A stretch of DNA of 48,104 nt, taken from a virus. Under the pieces are notes generated by a model. It was not told the origin of the DNA. It searched no databases and was given only the letters and a program-made list of their open reading frames with translations. The stretch spans positions 1-48,104 of IMG/VR virus record IMGVR_UViG_3300025669_000055; one strand, 5' to 3'. The position numbers and the translations under genes are program-made. Below, in pieces: positions 1 through 48,104 of this stretch (the stretch's first letter is position 1; each line of letters starts with the position of its first letter).

Positions 1-3000
1 TAAAAGAATCGTCAACATCACAAGATTGAGCTGCACAAGTTAGATTAGTTCCTCCGAGTCCATTGACTACTGTATTTATTTCTGTAGTTGCATCAGTGCA
101 ATTCTCCATTTCACCATTAGCATCTATTCCTAAACCATATTCACCAGCCGCACAATGACCTGCTGGATTAGCAGCAAAGGCAGTTGATGTTAAAGCATTG
201 CCCTGTAAAGCTCCGTAGAATGTAGGGGCTGTTATTCCGACTGTGGAAGTGGCGTTAGAGAATGTGAGTAAGCCGTTGGAATCAATAATCAATTCTGTAG
301 CATTACCACTTATACCATCATTTGTTTGGAATACTAAGCTAGTTGTTACTAAGTTTTCTGCTATACTTCCACTTGTTTCGGCTCTTATCCTAGCAGCGAC
401 TGTATTAAAATCAACTCCGTCATAAGCCTTCCAGTCAAAAGCTCCTATAACTTCAGGGTTTGTAACAATAGTTGGCGAATCAATAGTACCGTTAGAACTT
501 AAAAGAATAAATGCAGGATAACCAGCCCCAGCAACATAATTGCCAAAATCACTTTTATTTCCATCTTCAGTCGCAAGTAAAAAACCAGCTGATGAATTGA
601 TAGAGGCTGGGTCTTCTGTACCTATCCCTATTCTTCCATCTTCTGTTAAATATATAGTTGAAGTAGCAGATGTTTCATTACTAGGATCGCCTACTATGAA
701 GTTTCCTTTTGCCAAGACACTAGAAGAAACTGTAGTATTACACTCAATTCCTGTGCCAGCTTCATAAGTACAAACTTTAGTATCTGTAAGAGTTCCTTCA
801 TCTAAAGAGAAAGTTCCAGTAGTTAAATCCAATAAAGTTCCACCTGCGGTGTATGTTGTATCAATATAATTACCTGCATCAATGTTAGTAGCACCTTGGT
901 CAGAAGTCCAGTCAAGATGTTCGTTAGCTACAAAGTCAGAGAAGCCATCGTGAAAAGCACCACCTGTATAAACAAGTGTTGCGTCTGCTACTATTGTGTT
1001 TAATTTATCGTAAGTATTAATGTCTGTTGGTAGTAAGTAACCTAATTGTAACTCAGTGTATTCTGCTGCTGTTAAGTGATAATATTCTGCTGATGTACCA
1101 CCCTGTATTCCACTAAGGTTATTATGGACTGTGATGTCAGATACTTCTGCAAAAGCTATCCAAGCACTACCAGTACACCATAATAGAGATGTAGCTATTG
1201 TATCGTAGTAAGTCATTCCTGCTTCTGAAGCTGTACAAGAATAAGGTGCTCCTGCACTTCCTACTGGTTTAACTCCGTAGCTGTCCATATAAAGGTAAGT
1301 TCCACCACCTGAAATACTTACTAAATTTTCTATAGGTTTTTGTCCAGCCCAATTATTGCTTCGTGTTCTTTTAATGGCTATATAACTTCTAGCGTCTGTA
1401 TCTGCAAAAGCTGTGCTATCAATTTCTTCATTACATTGTCCTCTATCAACTGGATTCATAAAGTTTATAGAACCTGATTGTTTAAATCCATTGATAGTAG
1501 AAACTACTCCTGACAAGACTTTCCAACTGTCATCGCCATCACAATAATAATATTCAGCATTTATAGTTCTTTGGCTCTCAGTTGAAATATCAAAAGCTAT
1601 GTTTGTAAATTCTATGCCTGTTGCTCCTGCAATGTATATAATCGAATTATCGTTTTCGAACAAAGTTATATTTGTTCCTGCCGAATTAAAGGCAGTTGTT
1701 GAATCAATAGTTGTTCCATCACCATCATCATAATAAGCTCTTTCTAAATCGTTTGGATTACCTGAATGAATTATATGACTTGTTAAAGGTAAATTATTTA
1801 TGTGCATTATATCTACATCATTATCCGTTCCAGTTCCGATAAGGTTAAAGTCCATAAATCTCAATGAACTATTAAGATAATTATTCGCATTTCCTTCAAG
1901 GCTTGCCATTGTTTCTAATACTCCGTCTGATGGGTTAGTAGAAGAAGCATTTTGCATAAACAAGTTAAGAGCAACTATTCCGTCATAACCTTGTGAGTCT
2001 ACATCTATTGTTAATGCTTGATGTTGGTCTGCTCCTGCAATATCGTCAATATATACTCCTGTAAATCCATTACCTTCTGGTATTTCTATTTCAAATACTG
2101 CATCTTCATTATTACCAACAGTTAATTCAAAATCTCCATTATCTCCAACAAAGAAAATAGGTGCTGGGTAAATAATAAAAGACATAGCAGTAGCATCTGG
2201 TATCGCATCTCCATTAGCTGTTCCAAAACTTACAACTAAATGTGTGCTGTCTAATACTTCTTGAACCTCTCCAGTTGCTCCTCCGAAACTAGGTGCTGCT
2301 GAACTTATAACTCTTAAAAACTGTCCTTCATAACTAGAATCAAAACTAGCGTGAGTATCAGTTATTATTTGAGAAGAAGCTGTTAAAGTAGCATCGCCAT
2401 TTGCTATATTTGTATAAGTTATTGTATTTCCTGCATTTAAAATCTCTAATCCAGCTCCATAAGGTTTTGCATCTGCATAGAATCCTCCTACGGCTCTTAT
2501 TGAATCACTAGCAAATATATCTCCATTACCACTAAATCCTGATTCTGATGTTCCACCTACTTGAAGCCTAGTAGAAGAAGCTACAGTAGAAGCTACTAAA
2601 GTTGCTACTGTGAAAGGGTCATCTACATTTAAGGTATTGCCAGCCCAAGCTAGATTAGTACCGTCAGTAATTCTACTAGAAGGAGTATCGTAAAAATCAT
2701 TCCAATTAGTAGTTGAAGCAGTCCTGACCGCAGCGTAGCCTCCGTCATAATCTAAAGCTAAAGTGCCTGATGTTGTTATAGGGTTATCTGCTATTGCAAG
2801 CCCTGTAGGTACACTCAAATCAACTGAAGTTACTGTTCCTGAACCTCCGCTACTTAAACCTAGTGTAGAAGTAGCAACACTTTCCCATTCGCTAGTAGCT
2901 GTATTATATCTAAGCATCTCGCCATAAGTCATTGGTGTTGAAGTCGAAACATCACCTATTTGCCCTAGTTGATCAGTAGCTCCTCCACCACCGCCTCCAG

Positions 3001-3202
3001 TCCCTACAACCGGTACCCAATCTGTCCCATCATATTGTAAATAATCATCAGTAGCTAAACCATATAAATCAACATCGGTCAATGATTCTAGGGTTGGAGA
3101 GTCCTGTAATGAATTAAATCCATCACCAATATTCTTTTCATTTTGAGCCGTACACCCGCTGAATAATAGGAGTAATGCGATTGTGAGTAATATTTTTTTC
3201 AT
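1..3202 (-). CDS. Giant fibre-like lipoprotein, 3' end outside window
   Basis: This reading frame starts at the ATG at 3202 and stays open for 1067 codons to the left edge, so its C-terminus is missing. It begins MKKILLTIALLLLFSGC, a lipoprotein signal peptide with a lipobox cysteine at residue 17. The rest is Thr/Ser/Gly-rich fibre-like sequence with repeated 'ATST' and 'TST' words and the fibre signature GRIGIGTEDP. Near the left edge it carries the motif TNLTCAAQSCDVDD, which recurs almost unchanged in the protein fragment at the right edge. The gene is the last one in the leftward late block. A lipobox is odd for a virion fibre: the protein could be displayed on the infected cell. Fibre-like fold is confident; virion location is not. 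Confidence 0.8.
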   Translation of the reverse strand, partial: MKKILLTIALLLLFSGCTAQNEKNIGDGFNSLQDSPTLESLTDVDLYGLATDDYLQYDGTDWVPVVGTGGGGGGATDQLGQIGDVSTSTPMTYGEMLRYNTATSEWESVATSTLGLSSGGSGTVTSVDLSVPTGLAIADNPITTSGTLALDYDGGYAAVRTASTTNWNDFYDTPSSRITDGTNLAWAGNTLNVDDPFTVATLVASTVASSTRLQVGGTSESGFSGNGDIFASDSIRAVGGFYADAKPYGAGLEILNAGNTITYTNIANGDATLTASSQIITDTHASFDSSYEGQFLRVISSAAPSFGGATGEVQEVLDSTHLVVSFGTANGDAIPDATAMSFIIYPAPIFFVGDNGDFELTVGNNEDAVFEIEIPEGNGFTGVYIDDIAGADQHQALTIDVDSQGYDGIVALNLFMQNASSTNPSDGVLETMASLEGNANNYLNSSLRFMDFNLIGTGTDNDVDIMHINNLPLTSHIIHSGNPNDLERAYYDDGDGTTIDSTTAFNSAGTNITLFENDNSIIYIAGATGIEFTNIAFDISTESQRTINAEYYYCDGDDSWKVLSGVVSTINGFKQSGSINFMNPVDRGQCNEEIDSTAFADTDARSYIAIKRTRSNNWAGQKPIENLVSISGGGTYLYMDSYGVKPVGSAGAPYSCTASEAGMTYYDTIATSLLWCTGSAWIAFAEVSDITVHNNLSGIQGGTSAEYYHLTAAEYTELQLGYLLPTDINTYDKLNTIVADATLVYTGGAFHDGFSDFVANEHLDWTSDQGATNIDAGNYIDTTYTAGGTLLDLTTGTFSLDEGTLTDTKVCTYEAGTGIECNTTVSSSVLAKGNFIVGDPSNETSATSTIYLTEDGRIGIGTEDPASINSSAGFLLATEDGNKSDFGNYVAGAGYPAFILLSSNGTIDSPTIVTNPEVIGAFDWKAYDGVDFNTVAARIRAETSGSIAENLVTTSLVFQTNDGISGNATELIIDSNGLLTFSNATSTVGITAPTFYGALQGNALTSTAFAANPAGHCAAGEYGLGIDANGEMENCTDATTEINTVVNGLGGTNLTCAAQSCDVDDSF

Positions 3203-3219
3203 AATATTGTGTAAATATT

Positions 3220-4536
3220 TTAACATTTCTTTTTATTATTTGCTAGAAAATCATCCTCTGTTAGTAATTCAGAAATATCATCTGATATATCAGAAAGGTC
3301 GCTTGTTATATTTGGTGTAGGTGTTCCAAGTTTTGTATTGATTAAATTAAGTGTTGATAATTCTGAAAATGTAAGACCTCCAGTAATTCTAACTCCATCA
3401 GAATATGCTTCTTGAAATGCTGACGGTTTATTGAAAGTATCTGGTGAATAGGGAATAAAGTAATAATACCCATCGAAAGCTGACGTTTCTAATTCATATT
3501 GGAAAGTAGGTAATGGCGATGAAAATTCTTCTGCTAATGTTACGCTTTTCGTTGTCCAACCTGAAGCCTTAAATGTCATATCGTTAAAATCTAAAAAGTA
3601 ATTATCTGTAAGTCGCATTATTTCAAAAGTAGGTTCAGTTGATGGTGACGAGTCATTCTCTCCACCAGTCCAGTTTATCTTTTCAAATATAGACGAAATA
3701 CTACCAGTTGCAGTCAGTCCTATACTATCGAGGGTAACATCTAAATCGCCTAAGTTGCTTTGTATACCAGTTGCACTTAATCCTATACTGTCAAGAATAA
3801 CATCCAAATCTCCTTCTGGTGGAACATTATTACTTCCTGTCGCACTTAATACTATACTATCAAGTGTAGCGTCTAAATCTCCTGTTTCGGCTTGAGTTCC
3901 AGTTGCACTTAAAGTTATGCTGTCTAGGGTAACATCTAAGTCACCATTGTTCTCTATTTTTTCATATCCAACATCATAAACCTCAACGCTACTTCCTGTC
4001 GGTGTATTATAAATTTGAATTAAAACTCCATCTCTTGTCTCATTAGTTGAGTTTGTTTCTGATATTCTTTCAACATCATCAAGAAAAGCTTTTATTGAAG
4101 TTCCTAAACACCTGATGGATACTTTATAAGTGGTTGAAGCACTAAAACTTGGTATTGTGTAAAGTCCGAGTTGTGTTGTTGTTCCTCCCGCAGTTGTTGC
4201 ATATAATATTAACCTTCCATCTCCACGAAGTACAGCAAAATATCCATCTCTGTCAGAATCAGTTAAACCTATATAAGCACGATAACCAGTACCTGTATCC
4301 CCTAATTTTACGTTTATATAAGCAAGACCATCGCTTGACGGAAGACTTCCCCTACGAATAGGGGCAACTTGAAATGCTGTTCCACTTTCGTGTACAGCTG
4401 CATCAATACTTGCTTTTACTATTGTTGTATATAAAATCTGTGTCCAGCCTACTGAACCTGGGTCTGTATCGGGCGTATGATCGGCCATATTTGTGTCCGA
4501 TGTTTCTGTAAACGAATCGTAAAAATAGTTGGCCAT
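3220..4536 (-). CDS. Virion-type protein with four GDLDxTLDS repeats
   Basis: A 438-residue protein of unrecognised family. The N-terminal half (about residues 30-195) looks like a concanavalin/laminin-G-like beta-sandwich, with lines such as GYRAYIGLTDSDRDGYFAVL. Four tandem repeats follow at roughly residues 198-282, each a variant of GDLDVTLDSIGLSATG, and then a C-terminal domain rich in aromatic residues. Repeats of this kind are common in phage structural and receptor-binding proteins. It lies 17 bp upstream of the lipoprotein gene and 1 bp after the SGNH hydrolase gene, so the three are probably co-transcribed. The start at 4536 follows an A/T-rich leader. A tail or capsid surface fibre is likely; the ligand is unknown. 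Confidence 0.7.
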   Translation of the reverse strand: MANYFYDSFTETSDTNMADHTPDTDPGSVGWTQILYTTIVKASIDAAVHESGTAFQVAPIRRGSLPSSDGLAYINVKLGDTGTGYRAYIGLTDSDRDGYFAVLRGDGRLILYATTAGGTTTQLGLYTIPSFSASTTYKVSIRCLGTSIKAFLDDVERISETNSTNETRDGVLIQIYNTPTGSSVEVYDVGYEKIENNGDLDVTLDSITLSATGTQAETGDLDATLDSIVLSATGSNNVPPEGDLDVILDSIGLSATGIQSNLGDLDVTLDSIGLTATGSISSIFEKINWTGGENDSSPSTEPTFEIMRLTDNYFLDFNDMTFKASGWTTKSVTLAEEFSSPLPTFQYELETSAFDGYYYFIPYSPDTFNKPSAFQEAYSDGVRITGGLTFSELSTLNLINTKLGTPTPNITSDLSDISDDISELLTEDDFLANNKKKC

Positions 4537-4537
4537 A

Positions 4538-5770
4538 TTATTTAGTCATAAATCTTAAAATCACGTCCGCTAAAACTCTACCACCTGTTGCTGGCGTAGG
4601 GTGTATATCATCTGAAGAAAACCAATTCTTATCAGAACCATAACCATAATCTGAATATGACTCACCGAATACATATTGAGTATCAACAAATCCTGCTTTA
4701 TGAGTTGCTGCTAAAGCTAGTATTTTAGCTGTATATAAAGACATTGCGTATGTATGACTAAGCCCATTCACAGGGCAAGCTACACAAAGAATATCCACAC
4801 TTGGAAGTGCTGCTCGTATTCTAGTTAGCAAAGTATTGTATGCTGTCTCAAAATCGTCTGGTGTTACATCACCATTTTGGTCATTAACTCCAAGCATTAC
4901 AATAACCAGATTTGGGTTGAGTGAAGTTATCCCTGCTTGCCATTCAGTTGCGTCTACTGCTGCCCATTGCGTTGCTCGACTACCAGATGCACCAAGTTTA
5001 AATACATTAACCCCGTCAGCTGTAGATTTCTTAACATTTAATCCTGCTAGTTTTACAGTTCCTGAAACGTGTTCTATTTCTAATTGCCAAGCAGTTGCTG
5101 GCATACCTGAAAGTGCAGTAATAGTTAAACCTGAACCAGTCCCAACATCTAATCCTGTCCAACTTCCCCCATCCCATCTATATCTTATTGCACCTGCTGT
5201 TCCTGCTATATGAAATAAATCTATTGAGGTAGACCCAGCTTCGCCATCTATTGTAAGTTTTGACTCTGCTGTTGTACTTGAGCGGTAAGCTAAGTCTGGT
5301 GATGTGCCTGTAGTATACGCAGTGGCAACCCAAGTCCCTGACTCTGCACTAAAATCAAGCCTAGTTGTATCTATACTATTATTATATCCTGCTGAAGCCA
5401 GATAACTGCCAAAACTTACCCAACCAGAAGCTGCCTCACCATAGTCGGTTGTGAGTCTTTGATAAACTGCCCCTGAATATCTTGATAAAGCTTGAGTGTA
5501 AGAATCTCCAATAATTGCAATGGAAAGTTGTGATGTTTCACCAAGTAATAACTGTTCTAATCTCATCCTTGTTTCACGAAGAAAATAATCTCCTATCATA
5601 AAAGGTATGACTGAACCACTTGAAGCAGCAGGAATGTCTACTGTTACAACGCCATCTTCTTCAGATGCTGTAACACCAGCTCCAGTGAAATCCATTGTAT
5701 GACTTGACGGAAGAGCTGAACCAGCATCTTTAATTCCGATAACTAAATTTTGCGAAGGGAATGAACCCAT
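4538..5770 (-). CDS. SGNH/GDSL-family hydrolase, virion-associated
   Basis: A 410-residue protein with the catalytic blocks of the SGNH hydrolases: block I IIGDSYTQ with nucleophile Ser90, a block II-like GASGS at 260-264, block III GVND at 294-297, and block V DDIH with Asp388 and His390. A beta-rich domain of about 110 residues sits between blocks I and II. The first 75 residues are a separate segment that could attach it to a fibre. Phages use such esterases to remove acyl groups from surface polysaccharide during adsorption. It sits between two fibre-like genes, which fits that role. Catalytic family is confident; substrate unknown. Confidence 0.85.
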   Translation of the reverse strand: MGSFPSQNLVIGIKDAGSALPSSHTMDFTGAGVTASEEDGVVTVDIPAASSGSVIPFMIGDYFLRETRMRLEQLLLGETSQLSIAIIGDSYTQALSRYSGAVYQRLTTDYGEAASGWVSFGSYLASAGYNNSIDTTRLDFSAESGTWVATAYTTGTSPDLAYRSSTTAESKLTIDGEAGSTSIDLFHIAGTAGAIRYRWDGGSWTGLDVGTGSGLTITALSGMPATAWQLEIEHVSGTVKLAGLNVKKSTADGVNVFKLGASGSRATQWAAVDATEWQAGITSLNPNLVIVMLGVNDQNGDVTPDDFETAYNTLLTRIRAALPSVDILCVACPVNGLSHTYAMSLYTAKILALAATHKAGFVDTQYVFGESYSDYGYGSDKNWFSSDDIHPTPATGGRVLADVILRFMTK

Positions 5771-7830: not shown

Positions 7831-8535
7831 TTATTTATTAACTTTTTTAGTTTCTGTTTTATTTGAAGTTATTTTTTTGACTGGCTCAACTTTCTTTATT
7901 TCCGGTATAGCTTTAGGTGTAACCTTTTTAGCATCTGCCTCAGTTTTGGCTTTAGCGTCTGCTTCAGCTTTAATATTGGCTTCACCTTCTGCTTGCTCCT
8001 CAGCATCTAATTTCGCAATCGCTTCATCACTTTCTTTTTGATCTTTAGCTCTTGCTTCATCTTCAGCTTTTTTTACAGCTTCATCTTTTTTTTCTTCTTC
8101 GACTTTAGCAACTTCACTAACTTCTTCTTTTTTAGCTTTTTGAGCTTCTTCATTTTCTTTTAAACTATCATCAATTTCTTGACCAATTTTACTTTTTACC
8201 TCATCAACAACTTTTTCAGTTTTCTGAGATTTGTTAGACATTTTTTCTTTTTCATCGTCTAATTTTTTCTGCCACTCAGCTTCTTCTTTTGGTGTCATGT
8301 CTTGAGTAGGTTTATTTAAGAAACTAGTCTCCATGTCTTTTCTTACTTCAGACTCATAACCTTCACTTTGAGATCGATAAAGAGCAACTAATTTTTCAAG
8401 CTCAGCTTCTTTCTCTGGTGTTATTTCATTAATTAAATTTGTGAAAATTTTATAATCGGCTTTATCCATTGCCTTTTTAATGTTTTCTTTTTCTTGTCGG
8501 GTAAATACTTCCCAACGAATTGAACCAGTAAGCAT
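7831..8535 (-). CDS. Charged helical protein with Ala/Glu/Lys repeats
   Basis: A 234-residue protein. The first 75 residues look like a folded helical domain (RQEKENIKKAMDKADYKIF). The rest is low-complexity helix rich in Ala, Glu and Lys, with TolA-like words such as ADAKAKTEADAKK near residues 190-203, and a Lys-rich tail. No signal peptide is present. It is two genes downstream of the capsid gene. Possible roles are a shaft, linker or DNA-associated internal protein. Low-complexity sequence gives no family information. Confidence 0.5.
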   Translation of the reverse strand: MLTGSIRWEVFTRQEKENIKKAMDKADYKIFTNLINEITPEKEAELEKLVALYRSQSEGYESEVRKDMETSFLNKPTQDMTPKEEAEWQKKLDDEKEKMSNKSQKTEKVVDEVKSKIGQEIDDSLKENEEAQKAKKEEVSEVAKVEEEKKDEAVKKAEDEARAKDQKESDEAIAKLDAEEQAEGEANIKAEADAKAKTEADAKKVTPKAIPEIKKVEPVKKITSNKTETKKVNK

Positions 8536-8570
8536 ATTGTTTTTTATTATTTTAATAATTTATTAAATGA

Positions 8571-8607
8571 GGTGTTCCGCCCACCAATAGTGATGAGCGG
8601 ATACCGC
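8571..8607 (-). promoter_or_regulatory. Intergenic hairpin pair between capsid-region genes
   Basis: The gap 8536-8613 holds two inverted repeats: GCGG-ATA-CCGC at 8597-8607 and GGTG-TTCCGCC-CACC at 8571-8585. They lie just after the stop codon of the 242-residue gene. There is no good U-run on the minus strand, so a plain intrinsic terminator is doubtful. An RNA-processing or transcript-end-protecting structure after the capsid genes is possible. Confidence 0.4.
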
Positions 8608-8613
8608 ATTTAA

Positions 8614-9342
8614 TTAGTCGGATGCAACATATTCGTCAACAGAAACAGTGATATCTGTATCTGTTTCACGAGTAAGTCGTAAATAGGCTTCGTTACCACC
8701 TTCGATAACAACATCACCATTCTCATTTTCAACTAAATCCATACCAGTTCCAGCAGCAATGGTTGTGCTAGAAGCTGAAGTAGGAGACACATTCCTAATT
8801 TTGAATGTAACATAGTCTCCAGCAGTTTGGATTAGAGTTGTGAAAGTAGAAGTGGCGGCTAACGTCAATGTATTAGCAGCGCTAGTCAAAGTATAATCAA
8901 GCTGATTATACGCGATTAACTGAGCTTCTGTTAATACACCAGTAGCGACATCGGTAGAACTAGCTAGAATTCCACCACCTTGGGTGAATCTACTAGCATC
9001 TAAGTCTCCAGTGGCGCTAATATCTCCAGTAATAGTAGCATCTCCTAAAACAAATAAATCATCGTTAACTTCAAGATCATCTACTAAAAGATCATTTAAA
9101 GCTGTCCATTCATCAGTATCAAGATTTGTTGGATTAGGATCACCTAGCGCGCCAAAGGCATCATCCCTTGAATCAGTTTTTATAGGTTGGCCATCAATAT
9201 TAATATTAATATTGATGTTAATACCATCTTTTTCAACTTCTTCAAAGGCTTGACCTCTAACTAAACTAGGTAAATAAAAGCAAAACGAAATAACCATTAT
9301 CCCTATAGAAGCGGCAAGAATTTGTTTACTATATTTTCGCAT
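8614..9342 (-). CDS. Membrane-anchored or exported fibre-like protein
   Basis: A 242-residue protein. It opens with MRKYSKQILA and a hydrophobic segment at about residues 8-28, which can act as a signal anchor or signal peptide. Next comes an alternating Ile-Asn run (ININININID) encoded by a perfect DNA palindrome. The remainder is fibre-like, with DLFVLGDATITGDISATGDL and the Thr/Ser-rich AATSTFTTL. It is the gene directly downstream of the major capsid protein. An N-terminal export signal directly after a capsid gene is unexpected; the protein could sit on the host surface or be anchored in the membrane during assembly. Confidence 0.6.
   Translation of the reverse strand: MRKYSKQILAASIGIMVISFCFYLPSLVRGQAFEEVEKDGININININIDGQPIKTDSRDDAFGALGDPNPTNLDTDEWTALNDLLVDDLEVNDDLFVLGDATITGDISATGDLDASRFTQGGGILASSTDVATGVLTEAQLIAYNQLDYTLTSAANTLTLAATSTFTTLIQTAGDYVTFKIRNVSPTSASSTTIAAGTGMDLVENENGDVVIEGGNEAYLRLTRETDTDITVSVDEYVASD
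9193..9216. repeat. Perfect 24-bp palindrome inside a coding region
   Basis: The 24 bases here read identically on both strands: ATCAATATTAAT followed by its own reverse complement. They lie inside the 242-residue gene and encode alternating Ile and Asn residues just after its hydrophobic N-terminus. In mRNA the site can form a hairpin near the 5' end of the coding region. Confidence 0.85.
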
Positions 9343-9363: not shown

Positions 9364-10347
9364 TTAAATAGCTGCACTTGAACCTTTCGAACTGAAAGCC
9401 CACTGCCATCCGAGTACAACTGGACCAAACACAGTAGAACCGGTTTTAATGGTTGTACCGTTATTGTATTCCGGTTTCTCGTTCATACGAGGCTTCCAAG
9501 CGTAAGCCATGAAAGCTCGACGTTTTGCACGATTACCTTCAGAAAGAGACCAATATTCTCTATAAGCATAAGGAATATCAGCAGCAACAACAACACGAAT
9601 ATTAATTCCACGTCTCTTTAATGCCTCGGAACTAGCAAATTGCAAACCTAAATTTGCAACATCTGGACCTTGACGAGAGTCAATCAATTTATAAGCGTAT
9701 GCTGCTTTTTCTGTAGAGATAACTAAACGCAAATCTCTAACAGGTAATAATTGAATCCCATTATGATTCTGGAATCGGTTCATTCTGGAAATACCGTCGG
9801 TTAAGGCTGTTGGGCCTAATGGTCGTTCAGTATCACCTGATCCAAAATTATTATATTGGGTAGTTCCACTTTTTAAAGCATGTGAACCAAACAATGCTTC
9901 CGAATTTCCAACAGTCAAGAATGTAGTCCCATGACCTAAATAGAATACTTTACAAGCATCCTCATTCCAGCGTTGGTTCATTGATTGCTCAAATTCGCTC
10001 ATGTCATTACGCATGTCCATCATACGTTTTGAACTAGCACTCTTGGCAAGCCAATGTAAATCTTCCTCGGTCATCACAAACTTAGCAGTGTATTTTCTCA
10101 TTGCTAAGGTGACTGGATAACCTCTAACTTTTGTCACAACATTATACTCCTGACCTTCAGAAGATAATGGGGCACGACCAAAACCAGACATGTCGTTCAG
10201 AACTTCTTCTGGAACGTCTGGCTCATATTCGTTTAAACCTAAATCCTGGTAGTAAAGCATTGATGATTGCTCATCTTTAGCACGTGAGTATAATGCACGT
10301 ACTGTTGCATCTACCACATCAGAATATAATCCTTCAATTGTTTCCAT
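9364..10347 (-). CDS. Major capsid protein (HK97-fold candidate)
   Basis: A 327-residue protein that would form the icosahedral shell. The region YNVVTKVRGYPVTLAMRKYT near residues 69-88, the helix that follows (FVMTEEDLHWLAKS), and the C-terminal domain from RLVISTEKAAYAYKLIDSR to GPVVLGWQWAF match the general pattern of HK97-type capsid subunits. Length is typical. It follows the scaffold-like and decoration-like genes in the canonical order portal, scaffold, decoration, capsid. There is no long N-terminal delta domain, which fits having a separate scaffold gene. The start at 10347 is the first ATG after the decoration gene stop. Confidence 0.85.
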   Translation of the reverse strand: METIEGLYSDVVDATVRALYSRAKDEQSSMLYYQDLGLNEYEPDVPEEVLNDMSGFGRAPLSSEGQEYNVVTKVRGYPVTLAMRKYTAKFVMTEEDLHWLAKSASSKRMMDMRNDMSEFEQSMNQRWNEDACKVFYLGHGTTFLTVGNSEALFGSHALKSGTTQYNNFGSGDTERPLGPTALTDGISRMNRFQNHNGIQLLPVRDLRLVISTEKAAYAYKLIDSRQGPDVANLGLQFASSEALKRRGINIRVVVAADIPYAYREYWSLSEGNRAKRRAFMAYAWKPRMNEKPEYNNGTTIKTGSTVFGPVVLGWQWAFSSKGSSAAI

Positions 10348-14376: not shown

Positions 14377-16035
14377 TTATAGTTTTAAAATTCTAGCGCG
14401 AACACTTTCTCTTGATTTTTGTTTACGCTTATATTCATAAAATTCTCTATGTAAATCTGATTTATATTCATCTTTCCCTTGCCCGAATGGTCTAAAACCA
14501 ATCTGAGCAATATAATGCAGTGCATCCGCTAAATCATCATGTTTTGCTTTTGGAAAATCATACAACTGTTTCTTTAGTTTAGCAGTATGATCGACAGGTT
14601 TATGTTTAAAATATATTTTTCCGTGCTGCAATCTACCCTGGAGGGCCCCACGAATCCGGTCTTCCTTATTAGTGCCTCCATGTTTCAACTCCACAACAAC
14701 AGGAAATACTTGTTTTTCTTCACTACGTTGCCGTATATACGGCATAACTTGATCCTCTAAGGATTTCTTCTCAATACCGATCTTCACTGGCTTATATGTT
14801 TCCCACACGTAGAAAACCCAATCAATTAATTCAGGAGCATTAAGTCGCGCTTCTCGAACAGATTGTAAATACCAGTTCCCCTCACTATCAATATCAGCAA
14901 TTATTGTACCAGTATAATCCGGATCATTTTTAGCCCTAGCTTTAGAGTCAGCCACATCAATCGTAATATATCGATTCGTAGTACGTTTCAAAATTTCTGC
15001 CGGATCAAATTCTTTCTGTAACCACGCCAATTTAATTTCACGTTCAGCGTCAGTTAAAGGAGTATTAAGCATTTCCCGGTTATAAGTAGTATAACCAAGT
15101 AATCGCTGCTTCTTCTCTAAACTAACTTTCCGTTCTTTCGGATCGGCAATATCTTTATTAAATTCTAAAGCTTCCTTATCAGTATGAACGTATTTTGTCG
15201 GCCAGGTTATTCTTCCTTCATCATCAACTGCTTTTATGTCTCGAACTTTCCAGTCTACCTCATTTTTTGTTTTGTCTTCTAAATAAACAATCGAACCAGA
15301 AAAACTAATCCTATTGGCGAGTATTAAGAAATTACAATCAGGCGCGGACCCGGACAACATTTCATCAATAAATGTAGTAACTTCCAGTGTCATAGCCTCC
15401 GAAACAACAGTTTTCGAATTTTCAATATCATCCATGATAATCATGTCAGGCCTATAGCTATCATAAACCTCACCACGAATATTCATACCAGTCGAATATG
15501 CAATAACTTTAATTTTATTCGACGTAATAAATTCTTTAACAGATTTTTTCTTGGAAAATCTATGATTCTCCTCATCTATATCCATGTCCTTCTCAAAAAA
15601 CAATTGACCAAAATCATCAATAATCTTTTGATTCGTCTGTAAAGCAAATGCTACATCGTATAAGTTCGAAGATGCTTTCCTCTGATCGTAACTAACCCAG
15701 ATAATAAACTTCTTTCTTTCATAACAAATCATGTGAGCCAACCCAATCTTACCTAGAGAGGTTTTAGCAGACTCACGATACATAATCCACATAGCCCCAA
15801 CCAGGTTGTCAAAATTTAAGTCCTGGTACATGTCACTATGGAAATCTGGCATCTCGAACAAGTGATAATGTGAAAAGTAATATAATGAAAAGAGCGCAAT
15901 ATTTTTTCTACATGCGTAAACTCGTTTTTCTTTATCTTCTAATATCTCCTCAAATAACTTACGAAAGTCTTCTTTATTGTCGGGGAAAATTTTCTTTTCG
16001 TTTGAGGAATTTATCAATTCGTTGTTTTTCTGCAT
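14377..16035 (-). CDS. terL: Terminase large subunit (TerL)
   Basis: A 552-residue DNA-packaging motor. The N-terminal ATPase has a Walker A variant YRESAKTSLGK at residues 86-96 and Walker B MIIMDDIE at 198-205. The C-terminal RNase H-like nuclease has TIDVAD with Asp360 and the signature KHDDLADAL at about 498-506, whose acidic residues coordinate metal. The start at 16035 lies 62 bp inside the preceding gene, which implies coupled translation; no later ATG precedes the ATPase domain at a better place. The stop is 2 bp from the portal start. Confidence 0.95.
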   Translation of the reverse strand: MQKNNELINSSNEKKIFPDNKEDFRKLFEEILEDKEKRVYACRKNIALFSLYYFSHYHLFEMPDFHSDMYQDLNFDNLVGAMWIMYRESAKTSLGKIGLAHMICYERKKFIIWVSYDQRKASSNLYDVAFALQTNQKIIDDFGQLFFEKDMDIDEENHRFSKKKSVKEFITSNKIKVIAYSTGMNIRGEVYDSYRPDMIIMDDIENSKTVVSEAMTLEVTTFIDEMLSGSAPDCNFLILANRISFSGSIVYLEDKTKNEVDWKVRDIKAVDDEGRITWPTKYVHTDKEALEFNKDIADPKERKVSLEKKQRLLGYTTYNREMLNTPLTDAEREIKLAWLQKEFDPAEILKRTTNRYITIDVADSKARAKNDPDYTGTIIADIDSEGNWYLQSVREARLNAPELIDWVFYVWETYKPVKIGIEKKSLEDQVMPYIRQRSEEKQVFPVVVELKHGGTNKEDRIRGALQGRLQHGKIYFKHKPVDHTAKLKKQLYDFPKAKHDDLADALHYIAQIGFRPFGQGKDEYKSDLHREFYEYKRKQKSRESVRARILKL

Positions 16036-20942: not shown

Positions 20943-21521
20943 ATGAAAAAACTTACAAAAATGCTATTTTCAAGCATTATCAAACAAAGTAAAAACGATT
21001 TGCCGTTTACAGCAAGAGAAGGGCAAATGGTTAAATGGTTTATAAAATTCCAAATCCTTACACTGGTTATTATATCAGCATGGATTTATCCATTAATCAC
21101 GCTAAATAGCCACATAACAAGCTACAATCAATTAATTAAGGAGAATGTAAGCTTGCGGACTAAAAACAGCGTGGCGACCACCAAGAGAAGGATTTTAACA
21201 CCAGAAATTCCGGGAATACAGGTAAAAAGCGTCAAAAAAACTCCTGATCAAGTAAAAGATGAAATTCAGTTAATTGCGGAGGAACATAACTTTCCCTGGA
21301 TAGATTATCTTTTGCGGTTAGCCGGGTGTGAAAGTGAATTTAATTCAGAGGTGAGAGGTAAAATAGATAAAAGAGATAGAGGTGTTTTTCAGATTAATTC
21401 TTATTGGCATAGTGAAGTGTCAGACGAATGCGCGTTTAACGTCCGGTGTGCGACAGAGTGGACTATGTGGAGAATTGAGAGCGGACACCAAAACGAATGG
21501 ATTTGTGACAAATTAATTTAA
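20943..21521 (+). CDS. Membrane-anchored lysozyme/transglycosylase-like protein
   Basis: A 192-residue protein with a transmembrane segment at about residues 33-55 and a C-terminal lysozyme-like domain. The motif LAGCESEFN contains a candidate catalytic Glu130, and DRGVFQINSYWH (about 144-155) is the Gln-Ile-Asn signature of SLT/goose-type folds. It would cut peptidoglycan from the outer face of the membrane. It is encoded in the early arm, away from the holin-like genes near 45 kb, which is odd for an endolysin; a signal-anchor lysin or an entry-related or cell-wall-modifying enzyme is possible. Confidence 0.75.
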   Translation: MKKLTKMLFSSIIKQSKNDLPFTAREGQMVKWFIKFQILTLVIISAWIYPLITLNSHITSYNQLIKENVSLRTKNSVATTKRRILTPEIPGIQVKSVKKTPDQVKDEIQLIAEEHNFPWIDYLLRLAGCESEFNSEVRGKIDKRDRGVFQINSYWHSEVSDECAFNVRCATEWTMWRIESGHQNEWICDKLI

Positions 21522-26615: not shown

Positions 26616-26987
26616 ATGAAAAAAGTAATTTTCACAATCTGCATCGCCTTTCTATTGTTTGGTGGTGTAGCAAGTGCGGCAACATTGCCTATCGGAGACC
26701 TATCTGGTTTCTTTGTAATGATTCCAAGAATCAGTACTTATAATTATTACATGTCTCAAGACGGTAATGATGTATCAATGAACTTTCTAACAAACTTCAA
26801 GACTGAAGGACATGTTATGATTGTTGATACGGACACAGGTATTGATCAAATGTATTACGAAGGAGCTGAAAGTGTTTTTCACACAATGAGCATTACACTA
26901 CCATCAGGTAATTATGAAATGTTTGCAGTAACCGAGGGAAGACACGGGCTATTAACAGGTGATGTTATTCCATTCACTATTGATTAG
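26616..26987 (+). CDS. Secreted protein of the early arm
   Basis: A 123-residue protein with a clear Sec signal peptide: MKKVIFTICIAFLLFGGVASA, cleavage expected after ASA at about residue 21. The mature part is beta-rich and acidic (FKTEGHVMIVDTDTG, ITLPSGNYEMFAVTEG), and looks like an immunoglobulin-like sandwich. An early exported phage protein may change the cell surface, for example superinfection exclusion. It is followed by a strong hairpin, a DnaA box and a promoter, so it ends a transcription unit. Confidence 0.65.
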   Translation: MKKVIFTICIAFLLFGGVASAATLPIGDLSGFFVMIPRISTYNYYMSQDGNDVSMNFLTNFKTEGHVMIVDTDTGIDQMYYEGAESVFHTMSITLPSGNYEMFAVTEGRHGLLTGDVIPFTID

Positions 26988-41589: not shown

Positions 41590-43074
41590 TTATTTTATTA
41601 TACTTGCTATATAGCCCTCTGTTACTATTCCATAACTTGAATTGCTCTCTGAATTTTTAACTGTTACCGCTAGTGTCAAATCTCCGGTGCTGTCTTCTGT
41701 GGCAAAACCAGTCGCAAAACTATGTGCAACATTCAAAGCTCCGTTCGGGTCTGATCCATTTTCAGTTGCTTTTAATTCAATAATTCCTTTTTGTGCATCA
41801 GTAGATGTGGCTATGATAAAAGCTGTTATTGAACCTGTCATGTCAACTGCGCCACTAGAGCCTGCTTGCGATATAGTTGCTAATGTTGTTCCACCATATT
41901 TTATCTTTATATCAAAGGTTCCTGTTGTGTTCATATCTAATTCAGAGAAAGGTATTTCAATTTCTACTGCATTATTAGATCCTAACTCTCCGCCTGAAAG
42001 TGTTGTTGTGAAAACAGTTTGTTCATTAGTTGAGCTATGAGTATCAACTACTGTTGTTCCTGTTAATAATTTTTTATTACCAAAGGAATCAACATAAGCT
42101 TTATTAGCTATGTCATCATCGCCTGTTGGTGTTGGAACTGTAGTTGAACCAGTCACATATAAGTTAGCAATCTCAGCGTATTCGATGGTTGAGGTTGCTT
42201 GAGTGGTTGTAGCGAAAGCAAAATCTTCTGTAAGATCTAAAAATGATTGGCTTAATTTACCATCTGTACCAGTAATAGGAATAATAGTAGTAGCTATTAA
42301 TGGAGTAGATGAGGCATATTGAGTTGATAATACTTGTGGTTCATCAGAATCAAAGGTACCAGCGGCCATCTCAGCTTGAGTTCCGAGTTGAACGATTCCC
42401 ACTACAGTCGCGGTTGAAGTTGCACCACCTTGTTGTGCTACGCCATCGACATAAGCTTTAGTAGTAGCTTGACTATCGGTGGTCGGAGCCGGTACTATTG
42501 GTGACTCAGTAAAAGTTAAAACACCAGCGCTCTTAGTTTGATCATCATATAAATTAACATAATTACTATAAAATTGAGCAATGTTTGTCATTATGATTCT
42601 TGATCCTGCATTATGAGGAAAAGTTAGATCACTATCACCAACTTCACTATTCCCTGTGGCGGCTAAACCACGTACGCATGGTGTAAATGCAGTTGTTGAC
42701 AAACCTGAACATACAACTCTTTCTTCTTTACTTGTTCCCTGCTCGATATTGAAATAACATTTATTAGTAGCAGAACAAGTTAATGTTGTGCCATCGCTAT
42801 CATCCACTGATGATACTGGTATCTCAGTAGCTATAGCCGTGATTGACTCGCTCAATCTTTCAGAGTAACCAGTACTCGGAGCAAAGCCAATCATCGGCTC
42901 TTTTGTTTCAAGAATGTATCCACCCTGAAAAGCGTATGGATCGCCCACAACAACTGACTCTCTATGTCCCGTGCTGGGGTTATACACCGTTGCCATTTTT
43001 ACTTCATCAGCACTAGCGATTCCTGGTGCCAGGAAAACAAGTAGTGATAAAGTTATTAGTATTTTTTTAGTCAT
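41590..43074 (-). CDS. Exported fibre-like protein with signal peptide
   Basis: A 494-residue protein. It starts with a textbook Sec signal peptide, MTKKILITLSLLVFLAPG then IASA, with cleavage after residue 22. It then carries fibre-type repeats with TTKAYVDGVAQ (about 205-215) and NKAYVDSFG (about 325-333), the AYVD motif of phage tail fibres, and Thr/Ser-rich 'TSTIE' words. It lies between the peptidase and the head-tail adaptor. A cleavable signal peptide means the mature protein would leave the cytoplasm, unlike a normal virion part. Confidence 0.7.
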   Translation of the reverse strand: MTKKILITLSLLVFLAPGIASADEVKMATVYNPSTGHRESVVVGDPYAFQGGYILETKEPMIGFAPSTGYSERLSESITAIATEIPVSSVDDSDGTTLTCSATNKCYFNIEQGTSKEERVVCSGLSTTAFTPCVRGLAATGNSEVGDSDLTFPHNAGSRIIMTNIAQFYSNYVNLYDDQTKSAGVLTFTESPIVPAPTTDSQATTKAYVDGVAQQGGATSTATVVGIVQLGTQAEMAAGTFDSDEPQVLSTQYASSTPLIATTIIPITGTDGKLSQSFLDLTEDFAFATTTQATSTIEYAEIANLYVTGSTTVPTPTGDDDIANKAYVDSFGNKKLLTGTTVVDTHSSTNEQTVFTTTLSGGELGSNNAVEIEIPFSELDMNTTGTFDIKIKYGGTTLATISQAGSSGAVDMTGSITAFIIATSTDAQKGIIELKATENGSDPNGALNVAHSFATGFATEDSTGDLTLAVTVKNSESNSSYGIVTEGYIASIIK

Positions 43075-43167: not shown

Positions 43168-44205
43168 TTATTTTCCGAAAAATTTATGATCTGGAAGTTT
43201 AGCCAAGTCATCATCTGTTAAATTATTTTTTTCAACACCTATTTCATCGATTATAGAACCGAGCATAGCTTCCCAATCTTCAATCTTTTGCTTCTTACCG
43301 TCTTTAATAAACCAGAATCCACCTTTTGTATCTCTTGATATTTTTTTGAACATATTTATAAAATAAGTTAATAATTTTTTTTTTTCCTCAATTGGCTCTA
43401 ACCAACAAGCGTGAGCTGAGGCATATTTGAATGATTTGTGTAATTCTTTAAATAACTCGTCTTTTTGGACGTTTTCTTTGTATTTAAAGGTCTTAGGGTA
43501 CGTGTCATCACAGAAATTATTGCCATTATCTAGGACTTCTAGCCCTAAAAAACAGTGATTTGCCCATCTACCATTGTCATAATAAATACCATTTCTTGAT
43601 GCCCAAGCGAATCCGGTTAAAACAACTGGTGTTCTTTTGTATTGATTTTTAATTGAATCTAAGTTTACTGGTATAACCTCCCAGCGGAATTTCCATTTTT
43701 TTAATTTACCTCTGGCCATAATCTGAATTTCTTTTGGTGGTCTTTTGTAAAAATCTTTAAGGACCATTTCAGCTGTGAAGGGATAATTTCTGTCTTCTAC
43801 CCATCCATATTTTCTGAAACTTTCCATTCCTAGTCGAATACTTGTACCTCTTCCATGTTCTACTCGGGCATAAAAAGCATTATACATTTCTGAAACACTT
43901 GTTTTTACACCGTAACGTTTAAATAAATAATAACAAGTCGCTTTGGCTATACCGAAAAGGACACAGCAATAAGTATCAAAATTCTTATTCAATTGTATCT
44001 CTGGATTACCATAACTAGTAGCAATTTGATGCCACCCTTTACCATTAGGAAAAATTATTGGAGCTTTTTCTAAAGGTGAAATAGCGCCAAACATCGGAGT
44101 ATCACTCTTTTCAAATAATTTTGAGTGATAATCTTTTTCATTTGGATCTTCAACAATAAGACCAGAGTCTATAACTTCATTGATAATTAATTTTTCTTTT
44201 TTCAT
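43168..44205 (-). CDS. Papain-like (C1-type) cysteine peptidase
   Basis: A 345-residue protein with papain-type signatures: Gln71 then FDTYCCVLFGIAKA with Cys80/Cys81 at the helix start, RWANHCFLGLEVLD with His217, and FCDDTYPKTF with Asp233/234 at the place of the third catalytic residue. No signal peptide is seen. It lies between the holin-like genes and an exported fibre protein, so it could be an endopeptidase that cuts peptide crosslinks, a virion-maturation protease or an effector released on lysis. Family call is good; role unknown. Confidence 0.65.
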   Translation of the reverse strand: MKKEKLIINEVIDSGLIVEDPNEKDYHSKLFEKSDTPMFGAISPLEKAPIIFPNGKGWHQIATSYGNPEIQLNKNFDTYCCVLFGIAKATCYYLFKRYGVKTSVSEMYNAFYARVEHGRGTSIRLGMESFRKYGWVEDRNYPFTAEMVLKDFYKRPPKEIQIMARGKLKKWKFRWEVIPVNLDSIKNQYKRTPVVLTGFAWASRNGIYYDNGRWANHCFLGLEVLDNGNNFCDDTYPKTFKYKENVQKDELFKELHKSFKYASAHACWLEPIEEKKKLLTYFINMFKKISRDTKGGFWFIKDGKKQKIEDWEAMLGSIIDEIGVEKNNLTDDDLAKLPDHKFFGK

Positions 44206-45376: not shown

Positions 45377-47890
45377 TTAATAAATTGTTTCCCAAGAGTC
45401 TCCTATGTTAATTTGTGCTCCCTCTACAGCTTTCCAAGCATCTCCTATATTAATTTGCATTCCGTCAATGGCTTTCCAAGCATCACCAATGTTGATTTGT
45501 GTATTTGTTCCTTCTGCGGCTGCTCCTGTATTAATACCATACGTCAGCCAATCTACTGCTACGTTTGCAATACCATCTGTGCTTGTCGCTATAATCTTGC
45601 TCCATAAATAATTACTTGAAAGGTCGCCAGTTGCATTTGGTATGGTAACCCCACAATAAGTTAAGTCCCAAGAGGTAGGTGGTGTATCTACACTTGAATT
45701 AATACCAGTATACAAACTTAGTTCTGTGTTTGCAGGCGTTGTAGTTGCACATTCAATCTTACTTGCATCAGCATTAGTAATATCGCTTAAATCTGTAGAA
45801 AGTGATGTCCAAGTGCCAGTAGTTGCTTCTGGTGAAGCCTCATAAACCTTTACAAAGTCTATGGCTGCATCTCCATAATAACTTGAAGCACCGTCATAAT
45901 AAAATCTAATAGCTGTTGCTCCCTCCCAATCAGTATCAGGGGTTGTAACCTGTATATATGCTGCTGCTGAATTTGCTTGTACTGCACCATCCTGACTCCA
46001 TATTTCAACCCAAGAACTATCTATCTCTGCCTCTAGTGCAAGTTTTCCCATTGATGCTCCAAACATGTGATAATAGAAATCAACATATCCATCAACCTCT
46101 CCTGATAGTGTATATTCTATCGTATCATAATATGTTGCTCCTCTACATTGCGTAGTGCCACTAACTTCTGTAAACATATAATAACTGCCATCTTCTGCGT
46201 GGTCTGGTCCAGTAGGGTTTGATGGTGTTCCACCAGAATCTCTAGTCCAACAAGCTGTACCATTAGAATCGCTGTCAAACCAATCACCAAGGTTTACTTC
46301 ATAACTTTCTGTATCTACAAGAGCTGCTGACCCAGCTAATGTTATTATTAAACTATCTTCGCTTACTTCCATCTCATCTGATGTTCCCTTACCCCATTGT
46401 TCTTCTATTTGAGTTGTAGTTGCCACATCACCAGCCATTACTAAATAAGTATCTCCGATATAATAACCTGTGGCATCATAAGCAGACCTGTAATAATATG
46501 GTGTCAAAGTAGTAAGACCTGTCTGATTAAAATAAAATGTGCTATTTCCGCTAATAGTTTCTGGAGTTGTAGTTGCACCAAAAGCCTCGGTTATACCATA
46601 TTCAAAAGAAGCATCACCTCCATCGTCATCTTCAACAACAACTGAACCTTTAAAATTTACTGAAGTTTGACTTGAGCTTGTTGCTATATCAGTTATCGCT
46701 GTTGGAGATGGAGGCGGAGTATAAGTAGCATAAATTGAAGTTAGTCTTGCTTGACTGTCATAAGTTTGAGTTGCATCAGGAAAATTTGCATAATTAGTAT
46801 TTTGTTCATGAGTTTCATCCGTTCCTGCATCATAGGCTGTATAATAATAAAGCCCAGCAGCACCATCACCTTGCATGAGTAACCAATACGTTCCCGCTGT
46901 TAAACTTTTTGACAAAGTGTAATCATTCCATTGGTTTGCTGGACCAAGTGTTATTTCATTTGAAATAGAACCAGAAACATAACTTAATGTACTACCAGAT
47001 AAAGTATAAATAGCAGCCTTTGACAAATCAGGCGGAGTCCTTGGTGAAGTTAAATAAACTGATATTTGAGTTACTGTTCCGTCTTCACTCAAAACACCCT
47101 CTCCGCCAATAGTCCAGGTAGTAGTATTGAAACCCTGAGATGCACCAATGTCTGTAATTCCAAAAGTAGCTCCCATAGCGTGTTTAACTGGGTAAGTTGC
47201 TTTATCTAAGAAACCTTGTGGGATAGTAACACTCATTATTCCGTTTTCAATTAACAATTCTCCCCATACTTTATTTCCTTTTGCATCTTGCATTTGAGGT
47301 CTATAAATATGAAATGCTTTACCAGTCTTATAATTTGTGCTGCCTATTAAATGCCCATTTTTAATAGAGTGATAAACTGCATAACTTCCAACCACATTTT
47401 CAGGTCTGATAGCTCCTTCGTCTATTTCTTTTTGCGTAAGTTCAGGCTGATAATAAAAGACTAAATCCTTTGTTTCAATATTTAAAGTTATTACATTACT
47501 TTTAGGTTTCTCTTTTAAGATAATCTCATATTCAAAGGCTTCGTTCCCTTCAAAGGTAGTAGTATAAAAATTAAACTCTTTTTCTGGTGTATTCCATTTT
47601 ATTTTTCCGTCTTCTTGTTTAGCTGTTTTATCACCTTTTTCATCACTCCAAACTCTAATATAGGTTTCGTCTCCCCATTTCTCAAGTTTAACTTCTGGTT
47701 TGAAATCTTTTACTGAGTCCATTTTAGCTCCTAATAATTGTTCACCTCCAATTAAGACTCTTTCACCACCAACTTTAAATTCTTTCGTAACTACACCGCC
47801 ACCTAAGCCTTGTTCAATTTCAACATTCTGTATAGGTTGACTACACCCACTAAGCAATAAGATAAATAAAATTGTAATTAATTTTTTCAT
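45377..47890 (-). CDS. Giant lipoprotein-type surface/fibre protein
   Basis: An 837-residue protein. I chose the ATG at 47890 because the protein then begins MKKLITILFILLLSGCSQ, a lipoprotein signal with lipobox Cys16, and the preceding gene ends 2 bp before it; the longer frame from 48010 lies inside that gene. Residues about 110-260 contain LTQKEIDEGAIRPENVVGS and VTIPQGFLDKATYPV, a module I recall in surface proteins of uncultured bacteria. Then come beta-sandwich (laminin/MAM-like) and fibronectin-III-like domains (about 410-520). The C-terminus has three INIGD(A/S)W repeats, found in phage minor structural proteins. Confidence 0.75.
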   Translation of the reverse strand: MKKLITILFILLLSGCSQPIQNVEIEQGLGGGVVTKEFKVGGERVLIGGEQLLGAKMDSVKDFKPEVKLEKWGDETYIRVWSDEKGDKTAKQEDGKIKWNTPEKEFNFYTTTFEGNEAFEYEIILKEKPKSNVITLNIETKDLVFYYQPELTQKEIDEGAIRPENVVGSYAVYHSIKNGHLIGSTNYKTGKAFHIYRPQMQDAKGNKVWGELLIENGIMSVTIPQGFLDKATYPVKHAMGATFGITDIGASQGFNTTTWTIGGEGVLSEDGTVTQISVYLTSPRTPPDLSKAAIYTLSGSTLSYVSGSISNEITLGPANQWNDYTLSKSLTAGTYWLLMQGDGAAGLYYYTAYDAGTDETHEQNTNYANFPDATQTYDSQARLTSIYATYTPPPSPTAITDIATSSSQTSVNFKGSVVVEDDDGGDASFEYGITEAFGATTTPETISGNSTFYFNQTGLTTLTPYYYRSAYDATGYYIGDTYLVMAGDVATTTQIEEQWGKGTSDEMEVSEDSLIITLAGSAALVDTESYEVNLGDWFDSDSNGTACWTRDSGGTPSNPTGPDHAEDGSYYMFTEVSGTTQCRGATYYDTIEYTLSGEVDGYVDFYYHMFGASMGKLALEAEIDSSWVEIWSQDGAVQANSAAAYIQVTTPDTDWEGATAIRFYYDGASSYYGDAAIDFVKVYEASPEATTGTWTSLSTDLSDITNADASKIECATTTPANTELSLYTGINSSVDTPPTSWDLTYCGVTIPNATGDLSSNYLWSKIIATSTDGIANVAVDWLTYGINTGAAAEGTNTQINIGDAWKAIDGMQINIGDAWKAVEGAQINIGDSWETIY

Positions 47891-47891
47891 A

Positions 47892-48104
47892 TTATGGAGT
47901 ATATTGAATATACAAAGTTCCTCTTGGGAAACCTGAAGCGGCGGGTGGAGTATCGTCTGTGTTGTATAATATATTAGGAACATAATTAGTGTCTGCCGAA
48001 GAATTATCACCTGTGAGGGTTAAGCCAACTCCAATATCTGTTGCGTCATTCTTAAGAGCAAAATCATCAACATTACAGTTTTGAGCAGCACAAGTTAGGT
48101 TAGT
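47892..48104 (-). CDS. C-terminal end of a fibre-like protein, 5' end outside window
   Basis: The last 70 codons of a gene entering from the right edge, ending at TAA 47892-47894, 1 bp before the next ATG. It starts with TNLTCAAQNCNVDDFALKND, which matches the motif at the left edge of the window (TNLTCAAQSCDVDD), and ends ASGFPRGTLYIQYTP. It is either a paralogue or, more likely, the missing C-terminus of the gene that runs off the left edge. Confidence 0.8.
   Translation of the reverse strand, partial: TNLTCAAQNCNVDDFALKNDATDIGVGLTLTGDNSSADTNYVPNILYNTDDTPPAASGFPRGTLYIQYTP

Follow-up and report, generated by a model that had tools for sequence, protein, structure and literature searches.

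Described systems

Llp of phage T5 and Cor of phages phi80 and N15 are superinfection-exclusion lipoproteins, i.e., small receptor blockers. The protein at the left edge of the locus described here would be comparable to them as a phage-encoded lipoprotein exported during infection, but it exceeds 1000 residues, is made in a structural operon and, having no matching family, does not fit a small superinfection-exclusion lipoprotein. PblB of streptococcal prophages is a tail-fibre-like phage protein that acts as a cell-surface adhesin; a signal has been predicted for the NTUH-P15 protein, and the S. mitis PblB is described as being freed by phage-induced permeabilisation and as binding other bacteria (PMC4508584). 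Further, WceF of Pantoea stewartii, an exopolysaccharide enzyme, is an exported protein with a trimeric tailspike fold (PMC7949094), and gp40 of Xanthomonas phage PBR31 is an SGNH esterase with a signal peptide (PMC10975493). Missing signal peptides have also been cited in support of a phage origin of DGR targets, which are adhesin-like proteins (PMC6199706). In the open-access literature we found no paper that treats exported fibres as a class.

The left-edge gene and its signal

The window, i.e., the whole stretch of DNA that was analysed, is an entire IMG/VR virus record of 48,104 bases. The features at and around its left-edge gene are as follows (a slash marks the predicted cleavage site).

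2..3226, minus strand: fibre-like protein with an export signal, start at ATG 3226 or 3202, 3'-truncated at the contig edge
3152..3202, minus strand: signal peptide MKKILLTIALLLLFSG and lipobox cysteine (L-F-S-G/C), read from the sequence
3220..4536, minus strand: repeat-bearing protein without a signal, directly upstream of the fibre gene
4538..5770, minus strand: conventional tail fibre without a signal (phrog_38670, 2.2e-72), with a GDSL domain
9364..10347, minus strand: putative major capsid protein (weak PF25209, below the cut-off)
14377..16035, minus strand: terminase large subunit

The reading frame 2..3226 on the minus strand is open to the contig edge and comprises 1075 codons from ATG 3226 or 1067 from ATG 3202. 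This agrees with the original prediction of a gene of more than 1067 residues, with the correction that the contig edge truncates the gene. From ATG 3226 the N-terminus reads MLKYLHNI-MKKILLTIALLLLFSG/C, and from either ATG it retains a K-K n-region, the h-region ILLTIALLLLF and L-F-S-G/C, i.e., the charged n-region, hydrophobic core and lipobox ending in cysteine of a lipoprotein. Phenylalanine at position -3 of a lipobox is allowed, if uncommon. The prediction that this protein opens with a lipobox signal is hence confirmed from the sequence for both starts. Signal calls throughout were made with our own heuristic for cleaved signals or lipoproteins, whose false calls amount to 0.6% on shuffled N-termini and to 0.17% on internal segments.

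It had also been anticipated that a better internal start might remove the signal. Two such starts exist, namely a TTG at residue 49 and an ATG at residue 99; both are without a Shine-Dalgarno sequence, as are the signal-bearing ATG 3226 and ATG 3202. The internal starts would leave a gap of 120-300 nt, while the genes around it are packed with overlaps or with spacings of 1-32 nt (with one gap of 78), and the start ATG 3226 shares bases with the stop of the upstream gene 3220..4536. A better internal start is therefore not borne out, as either candidate would open a gap in a tightly packed operon.

The contig ends and other signal-bearing genes of the window

47892..48104, minus strand: probable C-terminal end of the fibre gene if the contig is circularly permuted, a 5'-open frame ending in ...FPRGTLYIQYTP and a stop
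45377..47890, minus strand: MAM-domain protein, the second with a lipobox (MKKLITILFILLLSG/CSQP), 1 nt after the probable fibre stop
41590..43074, minus strand: fibre-like protein with a Sec signal (...PGIASA/DEV), in the late operon, 9 nt upstream of the next gene
8614..9342, minus strand: protein after the capsid gene, with a hydrophobic N-terminus (signal anchor or weak signal) and no convincing cleavage site

The right edge of the contig carries a 5'-open frame of 70 codons (48104..47892) on the same strand as the left-edge gene. It begins with TNLTCAAQNCNVDD, which is identical at 12 of 14 positions to residues 1060-1073 of the left-edge protein (TNLTCAAQSCDVDD), the last complete motif of the latter; a break of the contig within the fibre gene, at one of its repeats, is therefore probable. 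On this match, the right-edge frame is probably the C-terminal end of the left-edge gene, and the simplest reading is that a circularly permuted genome was interrupted at such a repeat, which would make the two lipobox proteins adjacent; some sequence may still be missing between the two ends. The fibre frame stops at 47892, and ATG 47890 of the second lipobox gene lies one base further.

Export signals had been proposed for three further genes of the window. At 45377 a canonical lipobox (LSG/C) is present, with the start corrected from GTG 48010 to ATG 47890; a relative of this protein in L010 (40% identity) has a signal and lacks the lipobox. At 41590 the protein has a clear Sec signal ending in ASA, and no relatives of it were found in phages or viral contigs. 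At 8614 no convincing cleavage site is seen, and the N-terminus may be a signal anchor or a weak signal. Same-place equivalents of the 8614 gene, with a signal- or anchor-like N-terminus, occur in L004 (7662-8489) and L057 (4693-5211), and in these three phages the gene that immediately follows the one for the major capsid protein possibly codes for an exported capsid decoration.

Elsewhere in the window, 26616-26987 in the non-structural half codes for a 123-aa protein with a clear Sec signal (MKKVIFTICIAFLLFGGVASA/A), possibly an early envelope modification. The product of 20943-21521 is lysozyme-like (PF18896, just under the curated cut-off) and has a membrane segment at its N-terminus, which argues for a host with peptidoglycan; no relatives of it were found in the species genome contigs. 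Near the exported fibres, 43168-44205 of the window and 17913-18995 of L004 look papain-like by eye, with no Pfam hit, and a genuine Peptidase_C1 match is present in the L018 contig. No tRNAs were found in the window, and the Patescibacteria-like features of the phage are only an impression.

The fibre core and its distribution

1022..2596, minus strand: conserved core, residues 211-735, common to ten viral backbones
1247..2089, minus strand (approximate): recently exchanged part of the core, 93% nucleotide identity to the L013 phage

The left-edge protein has no Pfam hit and a single weak, uncharacterised PHROG hit. An AlphaFold model of its core has a pLDDT of 52 overall and of ~80-93 in one beta domain. 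In Foldseek the well-modelled part has weak matches, at best E 3.7e-3, among phage tail and spike proteins; the core model, of low overall confidence, returned mostly tail fibres from a viral library. As judged from these models, the label 'fibre-type' given to the protein appears fair. No virion-anchoring domain was recognised in it, such domains often being unrecognisable, and the PF09008 head-binding domain is absent.

The core of ~520 residues was found in ten distinct viral backbones, with near-identical contigs counted once. Their capsid and terminase genes are mostly unrelated to each other; the backbones nevertheless share the domain by descent and are thus not fully independent samples. 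Several different viruses from metagenomes 3300031227 and 3300035698 share the core, so that the module circulates within a community, and no relatives of the L018 fibre were found in cultured phages. Nucleotide identity between the window and the L013 phage is 93% (88% at third positions) over the C-terminal half of the core and 63% over the upstream part; as read from these identities, the C-terminal half is a recent swap between unrelated backbones. Swapping is common among receptor-binding modules. It could be argued that the domain was borrowed from a cellular surface protein and has no phage-specific function, given that bacteria too export tailspike-like proteins, e.g., the Tat-exported WceF of Pantoea (PMC7949094). 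We consider this very unlikely, because the core recurs in viral structural operons and a pattern scan of 84,980 species genomes, which favours close relatives, found no cellular relative of it.

A Sec-type N-terminus is present in eight of the ten core-bearing backbones (seven of ten if L057 is left out). In addition to the window fibre, the versions are MIKKLILTLFSFFFATGACFAD in L003/L005/L006/L013, ...SSYVFA/D in L004, ...LVTS/V in L015, ...LVSA/A in L016, ...IVAYG/I in L017, ...NSSA/T in L018 and ...CNPCSA/N in L057. The L057 frame has no ATG, GTG or TTG before the signal (around 8510-8580), and we tentatively attribute this to a non-standard ATT start, which GGAGG precedes by some nine bases, or to a sequencing error. 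No signal was called in the core fibres of L019/L020/L024 and L021/L022/L023. The signals do not align with one another and vary both in sequence and in type; L004, L015, L016, L017 and L018 have signals of signal-peptidase-I-type appearance, and conservation does not extend to the lipobox. Lipidation as a conserved trait of the core fibres was rejected on account of these ordinary signals in the relatives. Most long ORFs in the compared loci are without a signal: among 98 ORFs of at least 400 aa, 16 have a signal call, and 15 of these 16 are, by our own assignment, fibre- or adhesin-like.

Traits expected outside the cytoplasm

1541..1543, minus strand: Cys562, putative disulfide partner of Cys598, from co-variation
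1433..1435, minus strand: Cys598, putative disulfide partner of Cys562, from co-variation

Both cysteines are present in six signal-bearing homologues, and both are absent in two signal-less homologues and in the signal-bearing L017. A second pair, at positions 289/329, occurs together only in L016 and L018. This co-variation, across few sequences, suggests disulfides.

Sequons (N-x-S/T) were counted against the reversed motif (S/T-x-N), with proteins that have a signal or N-terminal TM segment set against the others. The signal/TM proteins contain 228 sequons versus 100 reversed motifs in G001 (the L018 contig; p=1e-12), 99 versus 52 in G002 (the L016 contig; p=2e-4) and 141 versus 66 in G004 (the L024 contig; p=2e-7), and the remaining proteins of these viruses show no sequon excess (67/68, 154/143 and 45/58, respectively). 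No excess was seen in the contigs of the window, L004, L013, L017, L022 and L057, and glycosylation in the window phage was accordingly rejected. For the core fibres alone, shuffling made the enrichment look significant in L015 and L018, but with the reversed control it is not significant (L018 21 vs 18, L016 17 vs 18, L015 29 vs 17); hence, the claim is limited to the signal/TM proteins of the three viruses as a set. Genes for RFC and XPB-like proteins in G002, and for a group II chaperonin in G004, make it very likely that these two infect archaea, and from the sequons we infer an archaeal host for G001. By the same heuristic, no signal-bearing fibres occur in the cultured archaeal tailed viruses psiM2, Drs3 and HFTV1.

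Giant proteins of archaeal-type viruses (L077 3652-8541, L064 3862-6801, L067 14770-19329 and L068 7232-10162) have in common an N-terminal domain of ~200 residues that starts with a TM segment. They are very sequon-rich and are encoded near tail-hub-like genes, and some contain lectin-like or GDSL domains.

The part of the original prediction that such fibre-like proteins leave the cytoplasm is supported at the level of sequence, because the signal recurs, the cysteines co-vary and sequons are enriched in the archaeal-type relatives. The hydrophobic N-terminus might instead be a non-working signal, with the protein remaining cytoplasmic and the segment serving as a virion-anchoring or trimerisation element; indeed, some N-termini (8614 and the archaeal giants) resemble uncleaved anchors. 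However, homologous proteins carry signals of different sequence and type, the cysteines co-vary, and the sequon asymmetry is seen only in signal/TM-bearing proteins, which together make a non-working signal quite improbable.

P22-type tailspikes and a possible virion role

Two P22-type tailspikes, L022 17204-19384 and L032 4902-6956, carry a signal peptide directly followed by PF09008 (5e-14 and 2e-17), with a DNA-ejection gene a few genes upstream. A scan for PF09008 gave 23 loci (22 distinct), and in 20 other loci the protein begins with the domain or close to it and has no signal; normal tailspike N-termini align to L022 residues ~19-27, beside the predicted cleavage site. A possible lipobox (VSG/C) makes the type of the L022 signal ambiguous. 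As the signal precedes a virion-binding domain in both, export does not exclude a role in the virion. The region 17204-21410 of L022 has four successive signal-peptide genes, coding for the tailspike, two small proteins and, by eye, an SGNH-like hydrolase.

This layout favours the alternative that the fibre is an exported virion appendage, which would be secreted, matured outside (by disulfides, and by N-glycans in archaeal hosts) and docked at lysis, the head and tail core being built inside and the adhesive appendages added outside. Collar and S74 chaperone domains in signal-bearing fibres, as well as the recent swap of the core, point the same way. A lipid anchor in the left-edge gene, and perhaps in L022, or an uncleaved TM segment in the archaeal giants would, however, hold the protein on the membrane, and no virion-binding domain is seen in the window protein; we regard the appendage as possible though doubtful. 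The broader proposition that some bacterial and archaeal tailed viruses finish their virions in two compartments, with the capsid and tail core cytoplasmic and the fibres or tailspikes Sec-exported, given disulfides, N-glycans and lipids as they mature outside, and joined to the particle at lysis, is in our view rather unlikely.

A fibre proposed to be held on the infected cell

Our preferred explanation, held tentatively and at close to an even chance, is that the left-edge fibre is kept on the envelope of the infected cell by its lipobox, beside a lipoprotein partner, and acts late, as an adhesin or by masking a receptor. A late fibre-type adhesin would be made with a Sec signal and cross the cytoplasmic membrane by export; in the window phage it would probably be lipidated at the lipobox cysteine and held on the outer side of the envelope together with the coupled lipoprotein neighbour. 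Its core may then bind a surface ligand, such that the receptor is masked or that cells and progeny are tethered. The left-edge fibre would belong to a broader class of fibres that tailed viruses export. The secretion, lipidation, cell location, ligand and benefit of this fibre are what we infer here.

The separate, signal-less tail fibre at 4538..5770 favours a separate role for the exported one. Envelope anchoring draws on the lipobox signal, the second lipobox gene 1 nt past the probable fibre stop, the unrelated Sec-type N-termini on the core (8 of 10 backbones), the fibre- or adhesin-like nature of 15 of the 16 long signal-bearing ORFs, the co-varying cysteine pair, the archaeal-type sequon excess and the absence of a known virion-anchoring domain after the signal. 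Set against it are the lack of lipobox conservation, the two tailspikes that pair a signal with a virion-binding domain, the placement of the gene in a structural operon and the swapping of the core in the manner of receptor-binding modules; moreover, the signal-less fibres of L019 and L022 share the core, and L017 has a signal without the cysteine pair. The lipid anchor originally envisaged thus stays plausible for the left-edge gene and its neighbour and does not extend to the relatives with signal-peptidase-I-type signals. Likewise, that the protein decorates the infected cell in place of the virion is one of two viable readings, its exclusivity being undercut by the signal before the virion-binding domain in two tailspikes.

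Comparison with known systems

Within the open-access literature, exported fibres look new as a recurrent class: some tailed viruses of bacteria and archaea seem to place adhesive fibres outside the host cell. If recurrent, such fibres would open a way to viral adhesins that are glycosylated or disulfide-bonded, and would weaken the argument from missing signal peptides for a phage origin of adhesin-like proteins. They also raise the question of whether they shield receptors on the infected cell or are attached to the virion once the cell has lysed.

As for individual systems, WceF, with its tailspike fold, is exported by a signal peptide, as is predicted for the window fibre, but differs in being a bacterial gene product, a Tat substrate and an exopolysaccharide enzyme. 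The PBR31 gp40 resembles tail-associated hydrolases and has a signal, but is a small enzyme of the lysis region and not a fibre. P22-type tailspikes are not known to be exported, and the window protein is without their recognisable head-binding domain; L022 and L032 share PF09008 with them, with an added N-terminal signal, and have the layout of a virion adhesin or depolymerase beside ejection genes. PblB, likened here by its description, is a tail-fibre-like adhesin, as the window fibre is proposed to be, and unlike it has no reported lipobox.
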